DNA of 64,000 nt from Tateyamaria sp. Alg231-49 (GTDB lineage Bacteria; Pseudomonadota; Alphaproteobacteria; Rhodobacterales; Rhodobacteraceae). Of this stretch, positions 11,519 through 25,276 are shown piece after piece. Every line of letters starts with the position of its first letter. Position 1 is the first letter of the stretch. A program made the translations under genes and the position numbers. The stretch covers positions 1 to 64,000 of the forward strand of contig NZ_FRFA01000004.1 in the NCBI RefSeq assembly GCF_900143535.1. Reading direction: 5' to 3'. The notes beneath the pieces were generated by a model, which was not told where the DNA came from, made no database searches, and worked only from the letters and a program-made list of their open reading frames with translations.

Positions 11519-12615
11519 GATGGTTTCTTTCATTCATAATGGCCGCTTTTTTTGTTCAGGCGGCAGTCGCTGGCCCCGTTCGGATCAAGGACCTCGTTGA
11601 ATTTGATGGAGTTCGAGGGAATGACCTCGTTGGTTACGGTTTGGTCGTTGGTCTCGATGGGACGGGTGACGGATTGCGCAACGCGCCTTTCACCGAAGAC
11701 ATAATGACGAACATCCTTGAACGGCTTGGCGTGAATATCACAGGGGAACAGTTCAGGCCCAAGAACGTGGCAGCCGTTTTTGTGACTGCGACACTTCCAC
11801 AGTTTTCCCGCAGCGGGTCGCAAATTGATGTGACCGTCTCTGCGATCGGAGACGCCCAAAGTCTTTTGGGTGGGACGCTTATTATGACACCGCTGAACGC
11901 AGCGGATGGTCAGATCTATGCCGTGGCCCAAGGCACCATAATCGCCGGCGGAGCTGTCGCTGAGGGAGATGGCGCACGCGTCACGCAAGGCGTTCCGACG
12001 TCAGGTGTCATTCCTTCGGGTGCTCGGGTGGAGCGCGAGATCGAGTTCGAACTGAGCAGTTTGACAGACGTGCGATTGGCATTGCGCAATGCAGATTTTA
12101 CCACCGCTGCAAGGATCGAAGAGGCAATCAACAATGACTTTAGGCGAGCCGTTGCCACCATGCTGGATTCTGGCACCGTAAGCCTGAATATCCCAAACAC
12201 GCGTATGCGATCCGTCGCCCACGCCATAGGTCGGGTTGAGAATATTACTGTCGAACCTGAGCGCAAGGCGCGGGTCGTCGTCGATCAAAGATCTGGAACA
12301 ATCCTCATGGGGGACGACGTTCGTATTTCGCGGGTCGCAGTCTCGCAAGGCAACCTGACGCTCCGCATTCAGGAACAACCCCTTGCCGTGCAACCGAACC
12401 CTTTCGCCGAAGGCTCGACCGTTGTCGTTCCTCGCACGACCGCAGACATACAGGATGATGAAGGCATCGGTTTGGCGGAGATTCCGGAGGGCGCTTCGCT
12501 GTCAGAGGTTATTGCTGGCCTGAATGCGTTAGGCGTCGCGCCCCGGGACATGATCGACATCCTGAAAAGCATCAAAGCCGCAGGCGCACTGCACGCCGAA
12601 TTCGTCGTGCGGTAA
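11515..12615 (+). CDS. flgI: Flagellar P-ring protein FlgI
   Basis: A 366-residue protein exported by a Sec signal peptide (cleavage likely after AVA at residue 19) that assembles the periplasmic P ring around the flagellar rod. The family signature follows at once: RIKDLVEFDGVRGNDLVGYG and VVGLDGTGD. Other hallmarks are TVSAIGDAQSLLGGTLIMTPL, GTIIAGG and the closing VIAGLNALGVAPRDMIDILKSIKAAGALHAE split over two short motifs. Start is fixed by the ATGA overlap with flgL and the signal peptide. It is the last gene of the visible flagellar run. Confidence 0.95.
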   Translation: MRWFLSFIMAAFFVQAAVAGPVRIKDLVEFDGVRGNDLVGYGLVVGLDGTGDGLRNAPFTEDIMTNILERLGVNITGEQFRPKNVAAVFVTATLPQFSRSGSQIDVTVSAIGDAQSLLGGTLIMTPLNAADGQIYAVAQGTIIAGGAVAEGDGARVTQGVPTSGVIPSGARVEREIEFELSSLTDVRLALRNADFTTAARIEEAINNDFRRAVATMLDSGTVSLNIPNTRMRSVAHAIGRVENITVEPERKARVVVDQRSGTILMGDDVRISRVAVSQGNLTLRIQEQPLAVQPNPFAEGSTVVVPRTTADIQDDEGIGLAEIPEGASLSEVIAGLNALGVAPRDMIDILKSIKAAGALHAEFVVR

Positions 12616-13098
12616 CATAGTCGAAACACCGGCTAAACACAGATCCTTGCTTCATTCGAAGTGCGACAAAGCATAGTTAGCCTAGCGCACAAGCAGCCGA
12701 TAAAACGGGTGGGCAGTCTCTCGTCAAACTTCGACTTTCCAAGTTTGGGCAAATGCTGATGCCAAGGACGCCCCGTCAAAAGGACTTGAAGAATCCCCTT
12801 TTCAAGCAGCGCGGATGGTTTGCGTATACAATGCAATTGGTCCGTTTCGAGGCACCCCAAAAACCGCACGCACAATAGCGGACACTCACCGTCACCAGAT
12901 CGTTGACATGGCAATGATATGTATGCGTAGAGTTTCGACAGAAACAGAACAAATGGTCGCTCAAATGACACGCGCCCTTCGCAACCCAATGCTGCGCCGC
13001 GAGACAGGCTGTGACCTCGTCACCTGACGCTTGCCAGAACAACCGCCGTTCTTTGGCGGGATTGCACCGTTCTTTTTCCTTACGACTGGCACCCCTAA
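12616..13098. other. Long intergenic stretch upstream of hyuA
   Basis: I see no gene I can support in these 483 bases. They hold the inverted repeat CTTGAA-N10-TTCAAG (about 12785-12806), then GCGTATACAATGCAA with a good -10-like TACAAT and a GTATAC core of the kind bound by GntR-family regulators, and CCGCC-N7-GGCGG (near 13042-13058). A 70-codon open frame at 12815-13027 has no ribosome site or family resemblance. This is the likely promoter region of the hyuAB operon; no regulator gene lies nearby. Confidence 0.4.
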
Positions 13099-15198
13099 AT
13101 GACTTCCACAGATGAATACCGTCTGGCGATTGATATCGGTGGCACATTCACAGACACCGTTCTGATCGACGGGGTCCACGGCATCTTGGCCACTGCCAAG
13201 ACCCCTACAACGACGCACGCGCCAGACCTCGCGGCGATGGAAGGGGCGACGCGGGTTTTGCAAACAGCCGGTATCGGTTGGGACCAAGTCGGGACGTTCA
13301 TTCATGGCACAACGCTCGCCACCAACGCGCTGATCGAACGCCGGGGCGCATCCGTTGCCACGATTACGACAGAAGGGTTTCGGGACATTCTGGAGATCGC
13401 GTTTGAGCGTCGATACAGCCAATACGCGATCAACATCGAAAAACCTGATCTGATCGTGCAACGCAAACATGCGTTCACGATTCGGGGCCGAATGAATGCC
13501 CAAGGTGAAGAGGTCGAACCCATCGACTTGAGCGGTGTCGTGGCGCTGGCAGAGACATTGCGGACCCAAAAGATCGAAGCCGTCGCAATTTGCCTTTTGC
13601 ATGCTTACGCCAATCCGGCGCATGAGCGCGCCTTGCGCAACGCGCTTCTGAAACAGATGCCTGACCTTGTCATCTCACTCAGTCACGAAGTCAGCCCGGA
13701 AGCACGAGAGTTTGATCGGCTGTGCACCACTATCGCCAATGCCTATATCCAGCCACTGATGGCCGGATACCTCGCCAATATTCAAACACGGTTCAAGGCT
13801 GCGGGGCTGACGTGCCCGATCCTGATGATGACGGCAGGGGGCGGGATGACCACGCTCGAAACCGCGGCACGCTTACCAATTCGTCTTGTAGAGTCTGGCC
13901 CAGCGGGGGGTGCCATTTTGGCGGCGCGCATTGCCCGGGAGACCGGGGCTTCTGAGGTGCTGTCCTTTGACATGGGCGGCACGACCGCAAAGCTGTCGCT
14001 GATCAATGGTTTTCGCCCGCAGATGTCACGCAAGTTCGAAGTGTCACGCGCCGCTCGTTTTATCAAAGGGTCCGGAATGCCAGTGCGCATCCCCGTAATC
14101 GAGATGATTGAGATTGGGGCAGGCGGAGGGTCGATCGCAACCGTGGACACCCTTGGCCGCGTGACTGTTGGCCCGCAAAGTGCAGGGTCCGATCCTGGGC
14201 CCGTGGGATTTGGCAAAGGTGGAACCGCTCCCACAGTTACAGATGCAGACATCGCTTTGGGTTACATCGACCCTGACCGCTTTGCCGAAGGGCGATTGCA
14301 GATAGACAGGCCCGCATCCGAAGCCGCGCTTGCAGACAGCATCGGTTCTCAATTGGGCCTAAATGCCGGGTCATCCGCCACCGCAGTGACTGAAATTGTC
14401 GATGAGGCGATGGCCAGCGCCGCCCGAATGCACGCGGTAGAGTCGGGCAAAGACGTGTCAGAACGGCTGATGATCGCATTCGGTGGCAATGGCCCCCTGC
14501 ACGCGACTCGGCTGGCGCGTCGTGCAGGAATCAGCCGGATCTTGATCCCGCAAGACCCCGGTGTGGGTTCAGCGGTGGGCTTCCTGTTCGCGCCCGTCTC
14601 GTTTGAGATCATTCGTTCGCATTACACAACGCTCGACGAACTTGATCCCGATGCCATTAATTCATTGCTCAGCGATATGCAGGCCGAAGCAACCGAAGTT
14701 GTGCGAGCAGGTGCCCCGGCAAGCAAACTGCACGAGCGGCGCGTCGCATTCATGCGCTACAAAGGGCAAGGACATGAGATCGAGATCGAACTGGACCCAC
14801 GGGCACTGAACGCCTCGGGCATCACAGACCTGACCACCGCCTTTGAAGCAGAGTACCAGCGCCAATTTGGCAGACGCGTTCCCGGCATGACCATCGAAAT
14901 CCTGAACTGGGGACTGTCCATGTCCTCGACCGCGCCAGCCCTGACAGAAGCGCCGCCACCACCCGCCGCAAACCACATCTCGGCGACCAGCGCGCGCATG
15001 GTATGGTGCAACATTGCCGAGGACTGGCGGAACGCCGGAGTGTTTGACCGAGCAGATTTGCAACCCGGAGATACGTTTGATGGACCTGCCTTGATCGTTG
15101 AGCCGCAAACGACAACGTTTGTCAGCACCGACTTTCGCGCCAGCATCGACGCTCGGCGCAACATCTGGATGACCACAAGACACGAGGCCGCTTCATGA
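13099..15198 (+). CDS. hyuA: Hydantoinase/oxoprolinase family protein, A subunit
   Basis: A 699-residue ATP-dependent amidohydrolase subunit. It starts with the actin-fold nucleotide site IDIGGTFTDT at 11-20, followed by HGTTLATNALIERRGA, the second Gly-rich site ESGPAGGAILAARIA and FDMGGTTAKLS near 290, and FGGNGPLHATRLARRAGI. With HyuB such proteins open hydantoins, 5-oxoproline, or in related enzymes N-methylhydantoin or acetone/acetophenone-type substrates; the actual substrate cannot be read from sequence. It begins a tightly overlapping operon with hyuB (ATGA overlap). The absence of a strong ribosome site before the ATG is notable, but the start agrees with the family. Confidence 0.9.
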   Translation: MTSTDEYRLAIDIGGTFTDTVLIDGVHGILATAKTPTTTHAPDLAAMEGATRVLQTAGIGWDQVGTFIHGTTLATNALIERRGASVATITTEGFRDILEIAFERRYSQYAINIEKPDLIVQRKHAFTIRGRMNAQGEEVEPIDLSGVVALAETLRTQKIEAVAICLLHAYANPAHERALRNALLKQMPDLVISLSHEVSPEAREFDRLCTTIANAYIQPLMAGYLANIQTRFKAAGLTCPILMMTAGGGMTTLETAARLPIRLVESGPAGGAILAARIARETGASEVLSFDMGGTTAKLSLINGFRPQMSRKFEVSRAARFIKGSGMPVRIPVIEMIEIGAGGGSIATVDTLGRVTVGPQSAGSDPGPVGFGKGGTAPTVTDADIALGYIDPDRFAEGRLQIDRPASEAALADSIGSQLGLNAGSSATAVTEIVDEAMASAARMHAVESGKDVSERLMIAFGGNGPLHATRLARRAGISRILIPQDPGVGSAVGFLFAPVSFEIIRSHYTTLDELDPDAINSLLSDMQAEATEVVRAGAPASKLHERRVAFMRYKGQGHEIEIELDPRALNASGITDLTTAFEAEYQRQFGRRVPGMTIEILNWGLSMSSTAPALTEAPPPPAANHISATSARMVWCNIAEDWRNAGVFDRADLQPGDTFDGPALIVEPQTTTFVSTDFRASIDARRNIWMTTRHEAAS

Positions 15199-16844
15199 GC
15201 ATCTCAAGCACCAAACTGCAGGTCATGTGGAACCGATTGCTGGCTGTGGTCGAGGAGCAGGGACAGGCCCTCATCCGCGCCGCGTTCAGCCCGATTGTGC
15301 GCGAATGCGGTGACATCTCTGCTGGGATTTTTGACTTCGAGGGGCGGATGCTGGCGCAAGCGGTGACCGGAACACCCGGCCATATCAACACGATGGCCGA
15401 GGCGGTGATCACCCTGCGCGCGCAGTTCCCGGTGCAAGACATGAAACCCGGTGACATCTACATGACCAACGATCCGTGGATCGCATCGGGGCACCTCAAC
15501 GATTTTCTGCTGCTCATGCCCGTATTCCATACAGATCGCGTCATCGGCTTTACGTCCTGCACGTCGCACCTTGTAGATCTAGGCGGTTTGGGCATGGGAC
15601 CAGAGGGAAGCGATATCTATGACGAAGGGTTGCTGATCCCACCCTGCAAACTGGTCAGTGGCGGTGAGGTGAACGCCCTGCTGATGGACATCGTCAAGGC
15701 AAACTCCCGCGAACCAGTCGCCAATGAAGGTGACATCTATGCCCTCATCGCCTGTTGCGAAGCCGGGGCCACACGCCTGAGCGCTATGATGACCGAGTTC
15801 GGGATCGACGATCTGCAGGCCCTTTCGGACTACATTATCGATACCTCACACACAGCGACAGTCGCCGCCATCGCCAACCTCCCAAAGGGCACGTGGCACA
15901 ACACGCTTACCGTCGATGGATACGACAGCCCGATTACGCTGCGCGCATCTCTTACGATCGCCGAGGATCACCTATTGATCGACTTCACCGGCACAGACCC
16001 TTGCAGCGGTAAAGGCATCAACGTGCCGCTAAATTATGCGACTGCCTACACGGTCTTTGCCCTGCGCTGCATCATAGGACCCGAAACGCCGAACAACGCA
16101 GGTTCCCTTGCCCCTTTTCGCGTCACAGCGCCCAAGGGATGCATCTTAAACGCTCAGGCTCCCGCTCCAGTCGCAATGCGCCACACGCTGGGGCAGATGA
16201 CCCCGGACCTTGTGTATGGCTGCCTATCCCAAGCTTTGCCCGACATAGTGCCGGCAGAAGGCGCGTCATGCATGTACGACTTGCCTCTGCGCAACGCCCC
16301 GGCCACGGGCGCGCAGTCTCGCGAGCATTTCGCCGTTGAGTTGGTGTTCAACGGCGGGACTGGCGCGCGCCCAAAATTGGACGGCTTGTCCGCCACCGCA
16401 TTTCCCAGCGGCGTTTGGGGCAGTCAGGTGGAAACCACCGAGGCAGCAGCACCTGTTCTTATCCACCGACGCGAATTGCGCTCCGATTCCGGGGGGGCTG
16501 GTCGGTATCGCGGTGGCCTTGGCCAACGGATCGAGCTGAGTTCTTCAATTGACGAAGAGATCATGTTGTTTCTGTCTGTTGAGCGTGTGAACACGCCAGC
16601 CCAGGGCCGTTATGGCGGTGAGAACGGGGCGAGCGGACGCATTCGGTTGAACGAGGCAGGAGAGAATTTGCCAAGCAAGGGTGAGTTTCGCATCATGCCC
16701 GGCGAAACGTTGATCTTTGAAACACCCGGCGGCGGTGGCTTTGGTCCGCCCGAAGAAAGGTGCAGGGATGCCCTAGGGCGCGACATTGATGCCGGGCACG
16801 TCAGCGCCGAGGCCGCCAAAATCCAATATGGTGCCAAGTCATGA
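15195..16844 (+). CDS. hyuB: Hydantoinase B/oxoprolinase family protein
   Basis: A 549-residue partner of HyuA. Family marks: a start region SSTKLQVMWNRLLAVVEEQG, ERDCSAGIFD-like RECGDISAGIFDFEGRM, GHINTMAEAV, the metal-site region MTNDPWIASGHLNDFLLLMP with FTSCTSHLVDLGG, and a C-terminal FETPGGGGFGPPEER. These residues belong to the hydrolase half that acts after HyuA phosphorylates or activates the ring amide. The ATGA overlaps at both ends (with hyuA and the aminotransferase gene) show translational coupling. Length is normal. Confidence 0.9.
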   Translation: MSISSTKLQVMWNRLLAVVEEQGQALIRAAFSPIVRECGDISAGIFDFEGRMLAQAVTGTPGHINTMAEAVITLRAQFPVQDMKPGDIYMTNDPWIASGHLNDFLLLMPVFHTDRVIGFTSCTSHLVDLGGLGMGPEGSDIYDEGLLIPPCKLVSGGEVNALLMDIVKANSREPVANEGDIYALIACCEAGATRLSAMMTEFGIDDLQALSDYIIDTSHTATVAAIANLPKGTWHNTLTVDGYDSPITLRASLTIAEDHLLIDFTGTDPCSGKGINVPLNYATAYTVFALRCIIGPETPNNAGSLAPFRVTAPKGCILNAQAPAPVAMRHTLGQMTPDLVYGCLSQALPDIVPAEGASCMYDLPLRNAPATGAQSREHFAVELVFNGGTGARPKLDGLSATAFPSGVWGSQVETTEAAAPVLIHRRELRSDSGGAGRYRGGLGQRIELSSSIDEEIMLFLSVERVNTPAQGRYGGENGASGRIRLNEAGENLPSKGEFRIMPGETLIFETPGGGGFGPPEERCRDALGRDIDAGHVSAEAAKIQYGAKS

Positions 16845-17923
16845 CCAGTGCTTTACCCCATGTCGCATGTATGTCGCCCTATGCGCTCGCTGATATGGCA
16901 GCACCTGAGGGCATCGATCTGGTGTCCTTGTCACAAAACGAAAGCCTTCGCGGTCCAAGCCCACGTGCAATCGAAGCAGCGGCAGCGCGCCTTTTTGATG
17001 CATCTGCCTACCCCGATCCGGATTGGTCCGCCCTGCGCAATTCTCTGGCCAAACTCCACGGAATTTCTGCAGATGGCATTCTGTGCGGAAGCGGATCGCT
17101 TGACCTGATTGCCTGCATCGCCCGCACCTTTGCGGGTCCCGGGCGCGCAGTGCTGGCCCCAGCACACGCCTATCCGTTTTTCCGTACTGTCGCGCAAATG
17201 TCGAATGCACGTTTTGATACGGCCGCTGAAACAGAATGCGTCGCGGATGTGGATGCCCTGTTAGACAGTGTAAAGCCTGATACGGCACTGGTCTTTGTCG
17301 CCAACCCGGGCAATCCGACGGGCACGTGTATCACAAGGGATGACCTTGAGCGCCTCAGGACTGGTTTGCGTGACGATATTCTGTTGGTGATCGACGAAGC
17401 CTATGGTGAGTTTGCAGACCACTTTGCTGATCCCTGCTGGAACTTGGTGCAGGGCACAAACACAGTTGTTTTACGTACTCTATCCAAGGCTTATGGCATG
17501 GCCGGGTTCCGCGTCGGTTGGGGGTTATTTCCGCCACATATCTCCAACGAAGTGCGCAAGGTCATGAACCCGAACAACGTATCGGCACCTTCACAGGCGG
17601 CGGCGCAGGCTGCGGTGCTGGATCAAGCGTATATGAAAGAAACCTGTGCAATAACGGGTGCCTTGCGCGACCAAACGATTGAGGCACTGCGCCTCGCAGG
17701 TTTTAAGGTCCTGCCAAGCGTCACCAATTTCGCGCTGATCCTTTTTGACAGCGAAAGCGCTGCCCAATCTGCAGACGCAAGCTTGCGCGCCAAAGGTATC
17801 TTCTTGCGCCGTCAACAGGGGGCTGGTTTGCCCCATGCCTTGCGCATGACAATCGGTCCGGAAAAAGAGACACAGATGGCCATTTCTCGCCTGAAGTCCT
17901 GGCATAAGGAGCATTCCGCATGA
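16841..17923 (+). CDS. Class I/II aminotransferase, histidinol-phosphate-aminotransferase-like
   Basis: A 360-residue PLP enzyme of fold type I. The visible core is SLSQNESLRGPSP (the family's N-terminal Asn/Glu loop), GSGSLDLIACIARTF, NPGNPTG at 155-161, VIDEAYGEF with Asp185 holding the PLP nitrogen, and RTLSKAYGMAGFRVGWG with the PLP lysine Lys216. It resembles HisC but lies in a catabolic operon far from his genes, so it more likely transaminates an amino acid or oxo acid released by the HyuAB step. It overlaps hyuB and the next gene by four bases each. Confidence 0.85.
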   Translation: MTSALPHVACMSPYALADMAAPEGIDLVSLSQNESLRGPSPRAIEAAAARLFDASAYPDPDWSALRNSLAKLHGISADGILCGSGSLDLIACIARTFAGPGRAVLAPAHAYPFFRTVAQMSNARFDTAAETECVADVDALLDSVKPDTALVFVANPGNPTGTCITRDDLERLRTGLRDDILLVIDEAYGEFADHFADPCWNLVQGTNTVVLRTLSKAYGMAGFRVGWGLFPPHISNEVRKVMNPNNVSAPSQAAAQAAVLDQAYMKETCAITGALRDQTIEALRLAGFKVLPSVTNFALILFDSESAAQSADASLRAKGIFLRRQQGAGLPHALRMTIGPEKETQMAISRLKSWHKEHSA

Positions 17924-18699
17924 GACAGACCCGTGGCCGCGCGCGCATCGGCGTTTTGGTGCCCTTCACCAACGCGAATCTTGAACCTGATTTTATGATG
18001 ATGTGCCCGCCCGGGATCTCCATCCACACCGCGCGCATGGGGGGATATGACGAAGACGCAGTACCAGATGAGGCCCAGATGCAAGGCCTCGGTGCGGCCG
18101 ATCTGGACGACCCTCTCCGCCTTTTGGCGGGGATCAAACCAGACGTGGTTGTATATGGGTGCACATCAGCGACGTTAACCCATGGTTCCAATTTTGATCG
18201 CGCCTTGGCTCAACAGATCGCGGCAGATAGTGGAGCAAAAACTGTGACCGCTGCCGGGTCTTTGGTACATGCACTGGCCGCGTTAGGAGCAAAGAATATC
18301 GGGTTTGCATCGCCTTACGTGCCTGCCATCAACGATATGGCCGTCTCCTTTCTGGACTCGACGGGCGTTCAAACAGTCGCCCGTGCAGAAGTGGATGCCG
18401 CCCTTGGCAATCACGAACAGGGCGCGCTGACGCCGGATGAAGTTTTTGCCCTCGGTTTGCGAGCGGATCACCCAAGCGCAGAAGCCATCGTGCTGTCCTG
18501 CACCGAAATGCGCAGCGTAGAGACGATTGAACGGCTCGAGACTGCTCTTGGCAAACCTGTCGTCACCTCGAACCAAGCGATGATGTTCGAGATTTTGGGA
18601 GTTCTTGGGGTGCATGATCCGGTGCCCGGATTCGGGCGTTTGTTGGATGGAGTTGATCGTCAGCGGGTCACGAAAGACGCGGAAACCCATCATGCCTGA
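17920..18699 (+). CDS. Maleate cis-trans isomerase / arylmalonate decarboxylase family protein
   Basis: A 259-residue member of the Asp/Glu racemase superfamily. VPFTNANLEPDF near the start recalls the maleate isomerase pattern, and the two catalytic cysteines sit in VYGCTSATLTHG (Cys81) and VLSCTEMRS (Cys194), the spacing of two-cysteine enzymes such as maleate isomerase. Related members racemise hydantoins or aspartate or decarboxylate arylmalonates, so the exact reaction is open. In this operon it could interconvert stereo- or cis/trans isomers before or after ring opening by HyuAB. It overlaps the aminotransferase gene by four bases and the dehydrogenase gene by eight. Confidence 0.8.
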   Translation: MRQTRGRARIGVLVPFTNANLEPDFMMMCPPGISIHTARMGGYDEDAVPDEAQMQGLGAADLDDPLRLLAGIKPDVVVYGCTSATLTHGSNFDRALAQQIAADSGAKTVTAAGSLVHALAALGAKNIGFASPYVPAINDMAVSFLDSTGVQTVARAEVDAALGNHEQGALTPDEVFALGLRADHPSAEAIVLSCTEMRSVETIERLETALGKPVVTSNQAMMFEILGVLGVHDPVPGFGRLLDGVDRQRVTKDAETHHA

Positions 18700-19660
18700 G
18701 CCTGTTCGCGTCCTCCTCCATAACGCGGAAACATCCGGACTGGCGGCCAAAACACGGGCAACCAATCCGGATGTTATTGTTGAAGAATGCCAATCCTATG
18801 CGGCACTGACCGACCACATAGACCGCTTTCGACCCGATGTCGTTTACACAGTTCGATTTGATGGCACACCGGGCTATCCCCGCGACTCACTCTTTGGACC
18901 GAATGGCCCAGCTTGGGTGGCCAACGGTGGGGCAGGCATAGACCATTTCAGGGTTTGGGACCCGGCTAAGGTCACGGTCACGAACGCCGCTGGTGTGGCA
19001 GCTGACATGATGGCCGAATTCGTGATGGGCACGTTTTTGCATTTCACCCTCGATATCCCAAGCTTGCAGATGGACAAGGTGCACCGGTTTTGGCGCGTGC
19101 GCACGGTCAGACCCATCAAAGGTCAGACGCTGCTTATCCTTGGGCTTGGGCAAACGGGCCGCGCGATTGCAAAGCGGGCGCACGCCTTTGGCATGACAGT
19201 GATTGGCACGCGAACCAGACCGAAAGAGATGGAAAACGTGGACGAAGTGCATGCAGCGTCAGATCTGCATGACCTGCTTCCAAGGGCGGATTTCATAGCG
19301 GTATCGACCCCTTTGACGGAGACGACCCGTGGGCTGCTTGGCAAGGACGAATTTGCGTTGATGAAGCCTGGTGTGATCCTTGCGGACGTCTCACGCGGCG
19401 GGGTCATCAACGGCGATGCAGTCCGCGCGGCACTGGACAGTGGTCGGGTGGCAGGCGCCGCCTTGGATGTGTTCGAATCCGAACCACTGCCCGAAGACAG
19501 CCCATTCTGGACCGCGCCAAACACCTTGATCTCACCTCATGCATCATCCGTCTTTGACGGATGGGAGGACGCTTCCTTTGACCTGTTCCTGAAGAATTTG
19601 GGCCACTGGATCGCCGGCGAACCCTTGTTCAACGTGGTCGATCCAACACGGGGTTATTAG
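18692..19660 (+). CDS. D-2-hydroxyacid dehydrogenase (NAD-binding)
   Basis: A 322-residue enzyme that reversibly oxidises a D-2-hydroxy acid to a 2-oxo acid. The Rossmann motif GLGQTG is at 151-156, with RTRP after strand two. The catalytic trio of the family is Arg235 (VSRGGVIN), Glu264 (VFESEPL) and His283 (SPHASS). I set the start at the ATG at 18692, which overlaps the isomerase stop by eight bases; the frame is open upstream but those residues read into the neighbour. Together with the aminotransferase it could handle the same 2-oxo acid. It closes the plus-strand operon; the next gene is convergent. Confidence 0.88.
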   Translation: MPEPVRVLLHNAETSGLAAKTRATNPDVIVEECQSYAALTDHIDRFRPDVVYTVRFDGTPGYPRDSLFGPNGPAWVANGGAGIDHFRVWDPAKVTVTNAAGVAADMMAEFVMGTFLHFTLDIPSLQMDKVHRFWRVRTVRPIKGQTLLILGLGQTGRAIAKRAHAFGMTVIGTRTRPKEMENVDEVHAASDLHDLLPRADFIAVSTPLTETTRGLLGKDEFALMKPGVILADVSRGGVINGDAVRAALDSGRVAGAALDVFESEPLPEDSPFWTAPNTLISPHASSVFDGWEDASFDLFLKNLGHWIAGEPLFNVVDPTRGY

Positions 19661-21974: not shown

Positions 21975-22310
21975 CCAATACGACCAATTGCGCAAGCTTG
22001 GTCAGCCGGTGATGGACATGCAAAGCAGCGCGTTGGACAGTGCCGGTATCGCCCACCGGTTTTGCGGTGACGCGACCCTTTTTGATCTCTATTTCACCAA
22101 AAAAACAGGTCCGGGATTCCCGAAACGCCAAACATACCAACCCGCAGGGCAACGCAGTCTGGAATGCCAGTTCGCAAAAACGGAAATTTCAAACTAGCGG
22201 GCCAACTCTATCCGGTGCGTGCACTGTCCGATGCGGGTCTGGAACAAACCGGGCAAGCTTTTGTCTTTGCCGCCAAGGCTTGTGGGGAACATCAGAAACA
22301 AGCTGCCTAA
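21975..22310 (+). pseudogene. Remnant of a class III aminotransferase (glutamate-1-semialdehyde aminotransferase type)
   Basis: Only the C-terminal part remains, in two frames. The first reads LGQPVMDMQSSALDSAGIAH, then RFCGDATLFDLYFTKK and, after a slip, QGNAVWNAS. The second reads RKNGNFKLAGQLYPVRALSD, AGLEQTGQAFVFAAKACGEH and stops at 22308-22310. This matches the end of HemL-like aminotransferases, in which a G-D-x-T-L-F-D segment is followed by RNA-x-x-NA-x-L-x-x-x-G and K-x-x-x-x-LYP. The PLP-lysine half is absent, and there are at least two shifts. The stop region overlaps the end of the minus-strand RTX gene by four bases. Confidence 0.65.
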
Positions 22311-25018
22311 AAGACGAAATCGTCAGCGCCTAGATCTGCCAGAGTGACGTCGATCAGCAGGATCGAGCTTTCGACGCCCGTGGTGATCAACACATCAGCG
22401 CCGTTTTGCTGAGCAGACGCCAAGACGGTGTCAACTGAATCCAAGGCTGCAAAGTTGGAGAAATCCATCAACTCAAAGCCATTGGTGGCCTCAAAGCCCT
22501 CGATGGTGTCATTGCCATGGCCCGCCTCAAAAACAAATCGGTCTGCGTTGAAATCACCTGCCATCAGGTCATCGCCCGCCCCGCCGACCAAAGTGTCAAA
22601 CCCAGCGCCGCCATAAAGCGAGTCCTGCCCTTCCTCGCCCATCAGTATGTCGTCCCCGGTACCTCCAAAAAACCGATCCTCACCCAATCCCCCCCAAGCC
22701 GTGTCATTGCCCTCATCACCAAAGTGGCCGTCATTGTCAGATCCGCCAATCAGCAAGTCATCGCCCGCGCCACCGAACAACCGATCAAGGCCCTGACCGC
22801 CAAAAATGATGTCATCGCCTAACTGTCCAAAGAGATTGTCAGCCTGATCGCCGCCGTCCAGCACATCATCTCCATCGCCACCGTCAAGCAGATCAAAACC
22901 GGCATTCCCAAACAGCGTATCGTTTCCAGCGTCGCCCCACACGCCATCCACAGTCATTCCAATGTTGGTCCCAGCGCTCAACCAGTCATCACCATCACCG
23001 CCATAAAGGCGGTCTGCGTCATCACCAGACCACAGGCTATCATTCCCAGCCCCACCAAAAAGCTGATCAAACCCTGCGCCACCAATCAAAATATCATCTT
23101 GATCGCCGCCATAGAGGGAATCCGCACTTTCCCCGCCGACGATGGTATCCGAGCCATCCTGGCCAAAGATCGTGTCAAACCCGATGCCACCAAAGACGAT
23201 ATCTTGGCCTGCGCCGCTGTCGATCAGGTCTTCGCCTCCGTCTCCGCTTAGGCTGTCATCGCCCAAATCACCTACAATCGTATCGTTCCCGGCATTGCCA
23301 AAGATAACGTCGTCGCCGTCCGTGCCATTTGCCTGTTCGGAGCCCGCGCCCCCCTGCACTGATCCAAGTGGATCAGGCAAATCGAATGAAGGCGCATCAA
23401 TCCAGATGGGCGCCACGGGCTGCGGCCCCGCGGTTTCCGTCGGCGGATGCAAAGGGGGGATATCCGGATCGTCGACGACATAGGCGGACGGGTCTGTCGG
23501 GGGGCGGTTGCCCACAATGATTGCGTCGCCATTGAAATCTGCCGCAGACAAGGATGCACCATTGGCCGACCGCACCTCGATCACGGACGTACCATACCGC
23601 AATTCGGCCCCCAAACTGGTCGATGAGACGATCAGGTTTTCAACGCCGCCGACCACACCAAGTGCCGAGATATCAATGCGGTCTTCGCCGGGTTGGTAAT
23701 CAAGGATAACGTCAATTGCGTCGTCCTGAGTAAACACGAACACATCAGCACCGGTATCGCCGCGCAAGGTGTCGCTGCCTTCACCGTCAATCAGGATGTC
23801 ATTGCCAGCGCCCCCTTGAAGCAGGTCAGCGCCGTCTGCCCCGTTCAGGATATCGTCCCCATCTGTACCATTGAGTGTCCCGCCCCCGGAGGACGCCACC
23901 TGTGTCTCGCCCGGTGCGTCGGCGGTGATTTCGTATTCAACCAAATACGGGGCCGATTGGGTCGTGACGAACAGGCGGGCACCGTTGTCCGTGTCTACCG
24001 CTTCGATGCCCGAGATATTGTTCAAAGGGCTGTCGAGGCTGCCTGCAATCGTCTCGACATGCTGGAGCCGCCCACCGTTCAGCATCACAAATAGGCTGAT
24101 GCCGGAATCCGTCCCGGCCGCGACCACAAATTCCTGCCCGTTGATCGTGACTGTGTCGACAAAGCTGGCGTCGTCAAACCGTGTGTCGAGCGTATCAAGC
24201 ACATGATCTACGATGCGCATGTCATCCCCATCTGCGTCGATGGCAAGGACCGACAGCGATCCGCTGCCTGACGCAGTAACAACAACATAAAGCGCACCAT
24301 CGGCCCCGATCACCGTCGTCATCGCTCCGGGCTGTTCTGCCCAGAACCCGTGATCCACATTCAGGTCAGCCATGTGTTGCATCTGGCCATCGCCTGCCAT
24401 TCGAAACAACGACACAGTGTTGTCCGCTCCGTAGCTGACCACCGCCACAGTCTGGCCCCCATGGGTCGCCGTCACAATGTCACTTGCAACCTGGTCATTC
24501 ATGGCTGTGCCCTGCCCAACAGACTCGATGCCCATCTGCGTGCCACTCGTGAACGTTATCTGCGCCAACCCACCACCGCGTATCGCCACCAGTCCGCCGG
24601 TGGCATCGCTCCACAAAGCCATCTCGGTGATATCACCGGCATCAAAACCACTCTCAGTTATGCTCGTGGCGCTGCCAAAAATGCCTGAGATCTGACCCGC
24701 TGTGACCGAAACGCCTTGCAATGCGTAACTGTCCAGACCCGCAAGATAAAGCTCAAACCCGGTCCCACTGATCTGGCGGATCTCAATGTCCGTGCTTTCT
24801 AGTTGCAGATACGAAGACGAAATGGACCAACTGTCTACCTCGTTGGTGTCGCCGGCATTTGCGCCAAGTTCGAAGGCGGTCAGCCATCCGTCACCGCGCG
24901 TGGCAGCAAAGAGGTACGTGACCGCCGTGGTCTGAACCACGTCCAGATCCATCACGCCAACAACGGCACCTGAATTTGCAACTGTTACGGCGCCATACGC
25001 CGTTAGTGACATCCGCAT
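22307..25018 (-). CDS. RTX (hemolysin-type calcium-binding) protein with beta-propeller-like N-terminal part
   Basis: A 903-residue acidic secreted protein. Residues 1 to about 375 form repeating beta-rich blocks (YLFAATRGDGWLTAFEL, GQTVAVVSYGADNTVSLFRM and the like) that suggest a beta-propeller. A first RTX block lies at about 380-420, then a beta domain, a Pro-rich linker near 515-545, and a large RTX block (about 560-825) of GGxGxDxUx nonapeptides that bind calcium in a parallel beta roll. The end is the uncleaved type I secretion signal with a DDFVF terminus. The start at 25018 has a G-rich ribosome site; the longer open frame begins with unlikely sequence. Its C-terminal third closely resembles that of the serralysin at 29956. 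No type I exporter is in the window. Function outside the cell unknown. Confidence 0.85.
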   Translation of the reverse strand: MRMSLTAYGAVTVANSGAVVGVMDLDVVQTTAVTYLFAATRGDGWLTAFELGANAGDTNEVDSWSISSSYLQLESTDIEIRQISGTGFELYLAGLDSYALQGVSVTAGQISGIFGSATSITESGFDAGDITEMALWSDATGGLVAIRGGGLAQITFTSGTQMGIESVGQGTAMNDQVASDIVTATHGGQTVAVVSYGADNTVSLFRMAGDGQMQHMADLNVDHGFWAEQPGAMTTVIGADGALYVVVTASGSGSLSVLAIDADGDDMRIVDHVLDTLDTRFDDASFVDTVTINGQEFVVAAGTDSGISLFVMLNGGRLQHVETIAGSLDSPLNNISGIEAVDTDNGARLFVTTQSAPYLVEYEITADAPGETQVASSGGGTLNGTDGDDILNGADGADLLQGGAGNDILIDGEGSDTLRGDTGADVFVFTQDDAIDVILDYQPGEDRIDISALGVVGGVENLIVSSTSLGAELRYGTSVIEVRSANGASLSAADFNGDAIIVGNRPPTDPSAYVVDDPDIPPLHPPTETAGPQPVAPIWIDAPSFDLPDPLGSVQGGAGSEQANGTDGDDVIFGNAGNDTIVGDLGDDSLSGDGGEDLIDSGAGQDIVFGGIGFDTIFGQDGSDTIVGGESADSLYGGDQDDILIGGAGFDQLFGGAGNDSLWSGDDADRLYGGDGDDWLSAGTNIGMTVDGVWGDAGNDTLFGNAGFDLLDGGDGDDVLDGGDQADNLFGQLGDDIIFGGQGLDRLFGGAGDDLLIGGSDNDGHFGDEGNDTAWGGLGEDRFFGGTGDDILMGEEGQDSLYGGAGFDTLVGGAGDDLMAGDFNADRFVFEAGHGNDTIEGFEATNGFELMDFSNFAALDSVDTVLASAQQNGADVLITTGVESSILLIDVTLADLGADDFVF

Positions 25019-25276
25019 CTTTACCCCCCAAAGGACTTGCGTTCTTGAGAAGGGTAAATGCCAATACGAGGTGCAGGCTTGTGGTCGCATTTACGGCGTT
25101 TCTGCGACCCATGAAGCGGATTTTAATGGATCAAGTCATGCTCCATTTACCATGCACGGCAATGGACGCCGTTGCAGGCACGCAGATTGCACCGTTCGCA
25201 CCCTTTTGCCCAAGTTAACCCCGAGAGAGGAACGTACGCCGGATTAACCAGCGATTTTCCTGAAAGGACCGCCTGC

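Follow-up and report, generated by a model that had tools for sequence, protein, structure and literature searches.

A conserved candidate leader peptide ahead of a hydantoinase/oxoprolinase-type gene core in Tateyamaria and related Alphaproteobacteria

Cyclic amides are opened by a family of two-subunit ATP-dependent hydrolases that includes the CapAB caprolactamase, 5-oxoprolinase, N-methylhydantoinase and HyuAB of Pseudomonas sp. NS671, according to the part of the caprolactamase paper that deals with the family (PMC8453981). The same part of that source describes IaaCE, likewise a HyuAB-type enzyme, for which lactam opening is proposed within the catabolic cluster for anaerobic indoleacetate degradation. 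Short leader open reading frames (ORFs) ahead of operons are also known: the metabolite-sensing TnaC (PMC8429421) precedes a catabolic operon and has its conserved C-terminal half near the stop codon, and the RAPP-type arrest peptides of bacteria (PMC12992588), leader peptides whose short C-terminal motif is conserved, are encoded ahead of protein-localisation genes. Here, we report a hyuAB-centred operon of Tateyamaria sp. Alg231-49, located in the first 64,000 nucleotides of contig NZ_FRFA01000004.1 (assembly GCF_900143535.1; this whole stretch is called the window), together with a short conserved ORF ahead of hyuA that is probably a regulatory leader peptide and the operon's missing control switch. 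A first-pass annotation of the window had stated that the operon has no regulator beside it, which is probably wrong in view of this ORF. The features concerned are the following.

12965..13027, plus strand: candidate leader peptide ORF of 20 amino acids, MTRALRNPMLRRETGCDLVT, ending RRETGCDLVT, with the core RRxTG[C/A/S][D/N]LV (from sequence comparison)
12995..13020, plus strand: exact match of the degenerate DNA motif MGNMGNNNNACNGGNTGYGAYYTNGT, the single match in the host genome
13043..13059, plus strand: hairpin CCGCC-GTTCTTT-GGCGG, downstream of the stop codon of the leader and belonging to a recurrent set (from comparison of spacer hairpins)
13099..15198, plus strand: hyuA, predicted ATP-binding subunit of a hydantoinase/oxoprolinase-family cyclic-amide hydrolase (PF05378/PF01968/PF19278 and sequence comparison)
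15195..16844, plus strand: hyuB, predicted metal-site subunit of the same cyclic-amide hydrolase (PF02538 and sequence comparison)
16841..17923, plus strand: HisC-like aminotransferase gene, called hisC below (PF00155; score under the HisC cut-off)
17920..18699, plus strand: isomerase of the maleate-isomerase/EutA/arylmalonate decarboxylase (AMDase) superfamily, with N18, C81, Y133, N164 and C194 (PF17645)
18692..19660, plus strand: D-2-hydroxyacid dehydrogenase, an exchangeable tail gene (PF02826)

The leader was found by comparing upstream regions, which share a word that translates to RRxTGCDLV. Counts were made on 75 loci, namely the window and 74 named loci in which hyuA is preceded by 300 bp or more; the duplicate L115, three loci without hyuA (L085, L091 and L093) and two with too little upstream sequence (L106 and L110) were left out, L106 still showing the core motif. 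Within 700 bp upstream of hyuA, the strict core RRxTGCDLV occurs in 52 of the 75 loci, at a single place in each and 79-147 bp before hyuA (distances run to the start of the tblastn match of hyuA). When variants of the core are admitted (C to A or S, D to N or F) and the position is restricted to 60-160 bp before hyuA, the count rises to 65, again at 79-147 bp; the cysteine is A or S in five of these, and the aspartate is N in nine and F in one. A start codon stands 10 or 11 codons ahead of the core in 55 of the 65 loci, ATG or GTG being found 28 times at offset 10 and 28 times at offset 11, and no other offset from 3 to 29 having more than eight. The tail after LV comprises 1-4 residues in 55 loci and 6-30 in seven and stays open past the hyuA start in three, and the leader genes are mostly 20-25 codons long.

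These properties are those of a leader peptide, a short ORF with conserved amino acids at a fixed place before an operon, and its translation is suggested by codon variation and the position of the start codon. Third codon positions of the core vary (0.9-1.8 bits), while first and second positions, the x codon aside, do not exceed 0.7 bits, a pattern partly imposed by the search expression; similarly, the codon differences are 228 synonymous against 16 others, a ratio skewed by the expression used to select the sequences. Free of this bias are the free variation at third positions, the fixed place of the start codon, the constant valine (64 of 65), which the expression did not require, and the genome-wide placement of the motif. 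The exact DNA motif is found once each in 23 of the 32 genomes that have an isomerase or hyuB ortholog, always 84-159 bp before hyuA, and the reversed pattern, used as a control, had no match in the same 32 genomes; a slightly wider pattern matches once in the window and not at all in 100 shuffles. Five of the nine genomes without the exact motif (all except G157, G628, G552 and G327) were inspected for variants, which stand before hyuA in G055, G073 and G228 and before hisC in G240, with none in G109. Among 104 genomes of the host's family, ten have the DNA motif: seven matches belong to operon copies, and the remaining three (G006, G071 and G097) are ascribed to chance because they overlap longer ORFs in other frames and have no operon homologue in the 3 kb around them.

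The leader also follows the operon through rearrangement, being retained where hyuAB is lost (L046 and L093) or genes are broken (L063 and L037, the latter with the variant RRATGCNLA). Since the genes upstream of the operon differ between loci (nitrate reductase, aldehyde dehydrogenase, a xanthine/uracil-type permease and others), the leader peptide is the only constant found ahead of it. No annotated feature covers the leader in the PLSDB tables, which are incomplete, for L034 and L036.

The operon behind the leader was delimited by a profile scan with an alignment of isomerase-like proteins, using one genome per species, in which at least 586 relatives were confirmed and the best 80 loci were used. 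Their titles are mostly Rhodobacterales, together with metagenome-assembled genomes titled Hyphomicrobiales, Rhizobiaceae group, Kiloniellaceae and Neomegalonema; L114, titled Flavobacteriia, is identical to the Roseobacter record L115. At identity thresholds of 40-60%, hyuA is present in 77 of these 80 loci, hyuB in 78 and hisC in 78, the absences falling on two contigs of 3-4 kb (L085 and L091), on L093, which has no hyuAB, and on L105 and L107, which have no hisC. A start codon that overlaps the preceding stop by four bases is available at 68 of 76 hyuA/hyuB, 69 of 74 hyuB/hisC and 71 of 77 hisC/isomerase junctions (L115 excluded), and gene-to-gene distance correlations across loci give Spearman coefficients of 0.71-0.87. 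Other genes are less constant: an MmgE/PrpD-family gene, absent from the window operon, occurs in 44 of the 80 loci, the dehydrogenase (at least 44% identity) in 37 and MttB in 18. The core is found on Leisingera and Ruegeria plasmids, broken in L037, and 6 of 385 genomes in a class-wide sample give a match at E <= 1e-60, including the host and one other member of its family. Within the family, 27 of 295 sampled genomes have the isomerase ortholog, one of them (G278) as a remnant; hyuB is found in 24 of these 27 against 1 of the 268 others, MmgE/PrpD in 22 against 11 and the dehydrogenase in 19 against 4, with ortholog thresholds (isomerase at least 55%, hyuB 68%, MmgE 52%, dehydrogenase 46%) that were chosen after viewing the lists and with counts that ignore kinship.

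On these sequence comparisons, hyuA-hyuB-hisC-isomerase is a real four-gene core that stays together and carries variable tails. The first-pass annotation had let its proposal of a five-gene operon stand or fall with co-occurrence in other genomes, and the genes do co-occur. Its five-gene unit is upheld as far as the four-gene core is concerned and gives way at the edge, where the dehydrogenase is replaceable and MmgE/PrpD is a sixth partner; 'exactly five genes' thus holds locally, the dehydrogenase being found in 37 of 80 loci. Its statement that no described pathway has this gene set still stands: among the matches listed from the open-licence PMC literature, judged by titles and abstract openings, we found no pathway or paper for the gene set or for the leader peptide.

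In the window, the five genes overlap successively by 4, 4, 4 and 8 bases, which bears out the single run with overlaps of 4-8 bases described earlier. The last value uses the dehydrogenase start at ATG 18692, chosen in place of the TTG 18605 of the ORF finder, several relatives matching from its first residue. The families named earlier agree with the Pfam matches for all five genes, and domains of the hydantoinase/oxoprolinase family exceed the Pfam cut-off in both HyuA and HyuB. For comparison, the ATP motifs of HyuA and the metal ligands of CapB were taken from the part of the caprolactamase paper that gives them (PMC8453981). The defining positions of the three motifs (DxGGTFTD, DxGGT and GxxPGP) are present in 77 of 77 HyuA proteins (76 loci and the window), and D40, H100 and H125 of HyuB, which align with the ligands D41, H99 and H124 of CapB, are kept in 77 of 77; CapB D101 aligns on N102 (76 of 77), beside D103 (77 of 77), an alignment in which a numbering offset is possible. 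Thus, the ATP motifs and most of the metal motifs of the family are kept. Unlike CapAB, HyuAB scores far below the cut-offs of the NCBIfam caprolactamase equivalogs (440.9 and 197.4 bits against 1000) and has different partner genes. The best solved match of HyuA is a protein annotated as N-methylhydantoinase. The HisC-like protein reaches 257.4 bits against the TIGR01141 cut-off of 276.55, and another host copy (C28) reaches 302.5. The IaaCE cluster has other partner genes, and we know of no pair of HisC-like enzyme and isomerase there. Two more HyuA homologues of the host (on contigs C35 and C31) lie outside the window operon.

The isomerase is distantly related to maleate cis-trans isomerase, its nearest solved relatives (PDB 2xec/2xed and 4fq7; E 3e-20). 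N18, C81, Y133, N164 and C194 align with the corresponding residues of that enzyme, two Asn, two Cys and one Tyr which we take to act in its active site, and they are invariant in 22 of 22 sequences; in the larger set, four are kept in 77 of 77 and C81 in 76 of 77. The two-cysteine enzyme of the earlier account is thereby confirmed, with both residues conserved. AMDase uses one cysteine, and the retention of both argues for isomerase rather than decarboxylase chemistry; the score against the arylmalonate decarboxylase model NF052327 is 75.8 bits, under its cut-off of 225. EutA of ectoine utilisation (TIGR02990) is the best NCBIfam match, yet at 121.2 bits it falls under the cut-off of 318, and unlike the EutA context the matches listed for the five genes include no ectoine hydrolase or deacetylase family. 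The nearest solved relative of MmgE/PrpD is IDS-epimerase (PDB 2hp3; E-value 2e-17), a match from which function does not transfer. The host encodes an MmgE/PrpD protein 68% identical to the operon type at G000:C17:275345-276658, adjoining genes for cytochrome oxidase and its assembly; therefore, the window operon has a partner outside.

Taken together, these data incline us, at a little better than even probability, towards a transferable catabolic operon that is controlled by a translated leader peptide. HyuAB would use ATP to open a cyclic amide (a lactam, imide or hydantoin), the two-cysteine enzyme would isomerise the opened acid, either cis-trans or at the carbon adjacent to the carboxylate, MmgE/PrpD would hydrate, dehydrate or epimerise, and the dehydrogenase and the HisC-like enzyme would interconvert 2-hydroxy, 2-oxo and amino acid. 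In outline, opening of a cyclic amide by HyuAB, rearrangement of the product by the isomerase and a 2-oxo or 2-hydroxy acid thereafter are probable, and the varied tail genes would fit a 2-oxo acid node. The scheme suggested at first is kept in its ATP-dependent cyclic-amide chemistry (motifs and metal ligands in 77 of 77), its isomerase step and its 2-oxo acid node and is given up in its fixed five-gene unit. An N-methylated compound is the likely substrate in at least one branch, because homologues of N-demethylation enzymes (MttB, dimethylglycine dehydrogenase (DMGDH) or sarcosine oxidase) occur in 26 of the 69 loci of at least 15 kb; in such loci N-methyl groups would be removed too. In G055, these homologues lie downstream of the operon and in its orientation.

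In the proposed control, the translation state of the leader, perhaps arrest by a substrate or metabolite, would alter the following hairpin or transcription and so set how strongly hyuA and its coupled genes are expressed. Of 65 loci, 39 have a short hairpin between motif and hyuA, where shuffled sequences give 13.6 +/- 2.9 and 21 at most; the hairpin and folding counts are not independent, since the loci are related. The leader may sense a metabolite by ribosome arrest, as TnaC does. Going further, RRxTG[C]DLV might define a new family of metabolite-sensing nascent-chain peptides, in which a substrate or product in the exit tunnel stalls the ribosome in or just after the motif and switches the hairpin and the operon; a protein regulator would be unnecessary, and the operon would move between genomes with its own sensor. 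This extension is tentative, and we give it somewhat less than an even chance. Unlike TnaC and SpeFL, the latter another metabolite-sensing leader peptide, the RRxTGCDLV leader has an unrelated sequence, and its frame continues well past the motif in some loci; unlike the RAPP-type arrest peptides, its motif is unrelated and contains no Pro-Pro. If the proposal is correct, this would be a new nascent-chain sensor in Alphaproteobacteria, travelling with its operon, and would explain a catabolic operon with no adjacent regulator gene. The isomerase ortholog would mark a probable route of cyclic-amide degradation in the host's family, and the leader offers a handle on it: a lacZ or luciferase fusion screened against compounds could lead to the inducer and hence to the substrate.

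Several results weigh against this account. A recognisable leader is absent in 10 of the 75 loci, and no regulator was found to replace it there: gyrB is upstream in three, the others are mixed, and one of nine scanned genes (L100 excluded) is a LysR gene. The constancy of the core amino acids is partly imposed by the regular expression, and the count of 65 took only cores within the allowed distance of hyuA. At the RNA level, a hairpin with a T-run occurs in 6 of 65 loci against 2.0 +/- 1.4 in shuffles (largest 7) and is not clearly enriched, and folding energies are weakly low both for the spacer (mean z -1.1, 14 of 65 below -2) and for the whole leader (mean z -0.7, 8 of 65 below -2); no Rfam family matches positions 12550-13150 at E <= 0.1. 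As to the N-methylated substrate, the demethylation genes are adjacent in a minority of loci, a figure that has no background rate, and the host has six MttB genes. Two other forms of control were set aside: a riboswitch, for want of an Rfam match over the leader region, and a single conserved terminator, which the hairpin and T-run counts do not support.

The small ORF could instead encode a functional peptide, such as the precursor of a ribosomally synthesised and post-translationally modified peptide (RiPP) or the scaffold for a small metabolite, in a biosynthetic operon. Such a role would suit a short ORF whose length is fixed, whose conserved C-terminal half includes a cysteine and which occurs once per genome, directly before the operon, and on a plasmid of Ruegeria sp. 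B32 (L034:22663-24894) a gene annotated as a RiPP radical SAM C-methyltransferase is found some 3 kb beyond the operon, beside its own NHLP-clan gene. The variability of the cysteine, of the aspartate and of the tails (described above) makes this role less likely, and neither the five genes nor MmgE include a radical SAM, YcaO, lanthipeptide-type or ATP-grasp enzyme; the partners appear to be degradative enzymes, and we consider the idea highly unlikely. Within a catabolic operon, the chemistry can be specified in other ways. HyuAB may open an imide or unsaturated lactam of the maleimide type to a cis-amic acid, from which the isomerase would make the trans acid, MmgE/PrpD by hydration a D-2-hydroxy acid and the dehydrogenase by oxidation a 2-oxo acid that the HisC-like enzyme aminates. 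Every step is matched by the gene content, the alignment with maleate isomerase fits, and the decarboxylase variants suit a 2-oxo acid end; nevertheless, the nearest solved relative of MmgE/PrpD is an epimerase, not a hydratase, and some loci have no MmgE, dehydrogenase or hisC. This specific sequence of steps seems somewhat unlikely.

A route from hydantoins would begin with racemisation of a 5-substituted hydantoin by the two-cysteine enzyme, followed by ring opening by HyuAB and transamination of the resulting amino acid. This route draws on the N-methylhydantoinase match of HyuA and on the hydantoin racemases that the isomerase superfamily includes, as stated in part of PMC4996985. The isomerase, however, matches maleate isomerase and EutA better than hydantoin racemase, and unlike hyuABC hydantoin utilisation the Pfam scan finds no HyuC carbamoylase among the five operon genes, though one could be elsewhere in the host genome, the rest of which was not searched for it; we regard this route as distinctly unlikely. 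Least probable of all, at a very slight chance, is the degradation of a histidine betaine of the hercynine or ergothioneine type. It was suggested by a host locus (L160:5232-19253, G000:C37) in which genes for an IclR-type regulator, DMGDH, MttB and an FAD-binding monooxygenase-family protein adjoin hutF-, hutI-, hutH-, hutG- and hutU-like genes, the DMGDH sharing 85% identity with one that the G055 operon contains; the operon remnant of G278 is also beside hut, and L034 has an annotated N-formylglutamate amidohydrolase some 12 kb away from the operon. The DMGDH-mttB pair is widespread (L174-L213), with DMGDH in 77 of 295 family genomes, accompanied nearby by MttB in 26 of 40 neighbourhoods. 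The surroundings of this DMGDH were compared in 40 of those 77 genomes, contig ends truncating some of them, and hut genes were present in 0 of these 40 further neighbourhoods; the other operon copies searched gave no match to the host hut proteins. The lead was largely refuted by the 0 of 40 and was rejected.

The tails of the operon take several forms, some with homologues of 2-oxo acid decarboxylases. L108 has a ComDE-like decarboxylase (below cut-off) with an aldehyde dehydrogenase, L110 an AruI-subfamily decarboxylase (above cut-off) with another MmgE/PrpD protein, and L073, L077 and L078 a flavin-mononucleotide-dependent dehydrogenase with a thiamine-pyrophosphate-enzyme half; such halves lie beside the operon at L073, L077, L078 and L081. 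A sulfonate route was rejected, the decarboxylase homologues of L108 scoring under the sulfopyruvate decarboxylase cut-offs. Because a DHDPS-family gene trails the dehydrogenase in five loci (L087, L094, L095, L103 and L104; 62-87% identical to that of L094), an additional type of tail gene exists. In L116, L113, L120 and L147, sarcosine-oxidase-like alpha and beta genes (beta cut off in L120) are next to mttB and the dehydrogenase, with a small third protein that has no Pfam match.

Decayed copies were also seen. L063:9844-12248 (G278) is a collapsed remnant with parts of hyuA and hyuB in one open frame and parts of hisC and the isomerase in another, and in L037:9884-14597, on a plasmid of Leisingera methylohalidivorans, hyuA is truncated and the hyuB and hisC frames are fused. 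In the operons without hyuAB, L046 (G240) and L093, the leader precedes hisC by about 276 bp; another contig of G240 has a hyuB-like stretch (58%) within an open frame of 1316 codons, which points to a probable fused hyuAB.

The flanks of the operon were scanned for 62 first upstream genes (of 121 de-duplicated proteins) and 57 downstream genes (of 179), some of them miscalled ORFs. An attempt to read the substrate from adjoining transporters was abandoned, these being scattered: ABC ATPases account for 2 of 62 upstream and 5 of 57 downstream genes and others for one or two, among the 25 families listed of 46 and 57; the commonest upstream family listed is aldehyde dehydrogenase (6 of 62). In the window, the run is followed by a carboxymuconolactone-decarboxylase-family (CMD) gene on the opposite strand and a zinc-type dehydrogenase gene, both from the Pfam scan, and preceded by genes that by eye resemble what we take to be flgK, flgL and flgI, with the flgI-like gene directly before it. 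No transporter adjoins the five genes, as judged by Pfam for the two genes after the run and by eye for the one before, in line with the earlier remark. Further along, 22307-25090 on the minus strand encodes a protein of 927 residues whose numerous GGxGxD-type repeats look RTX-like by eye.

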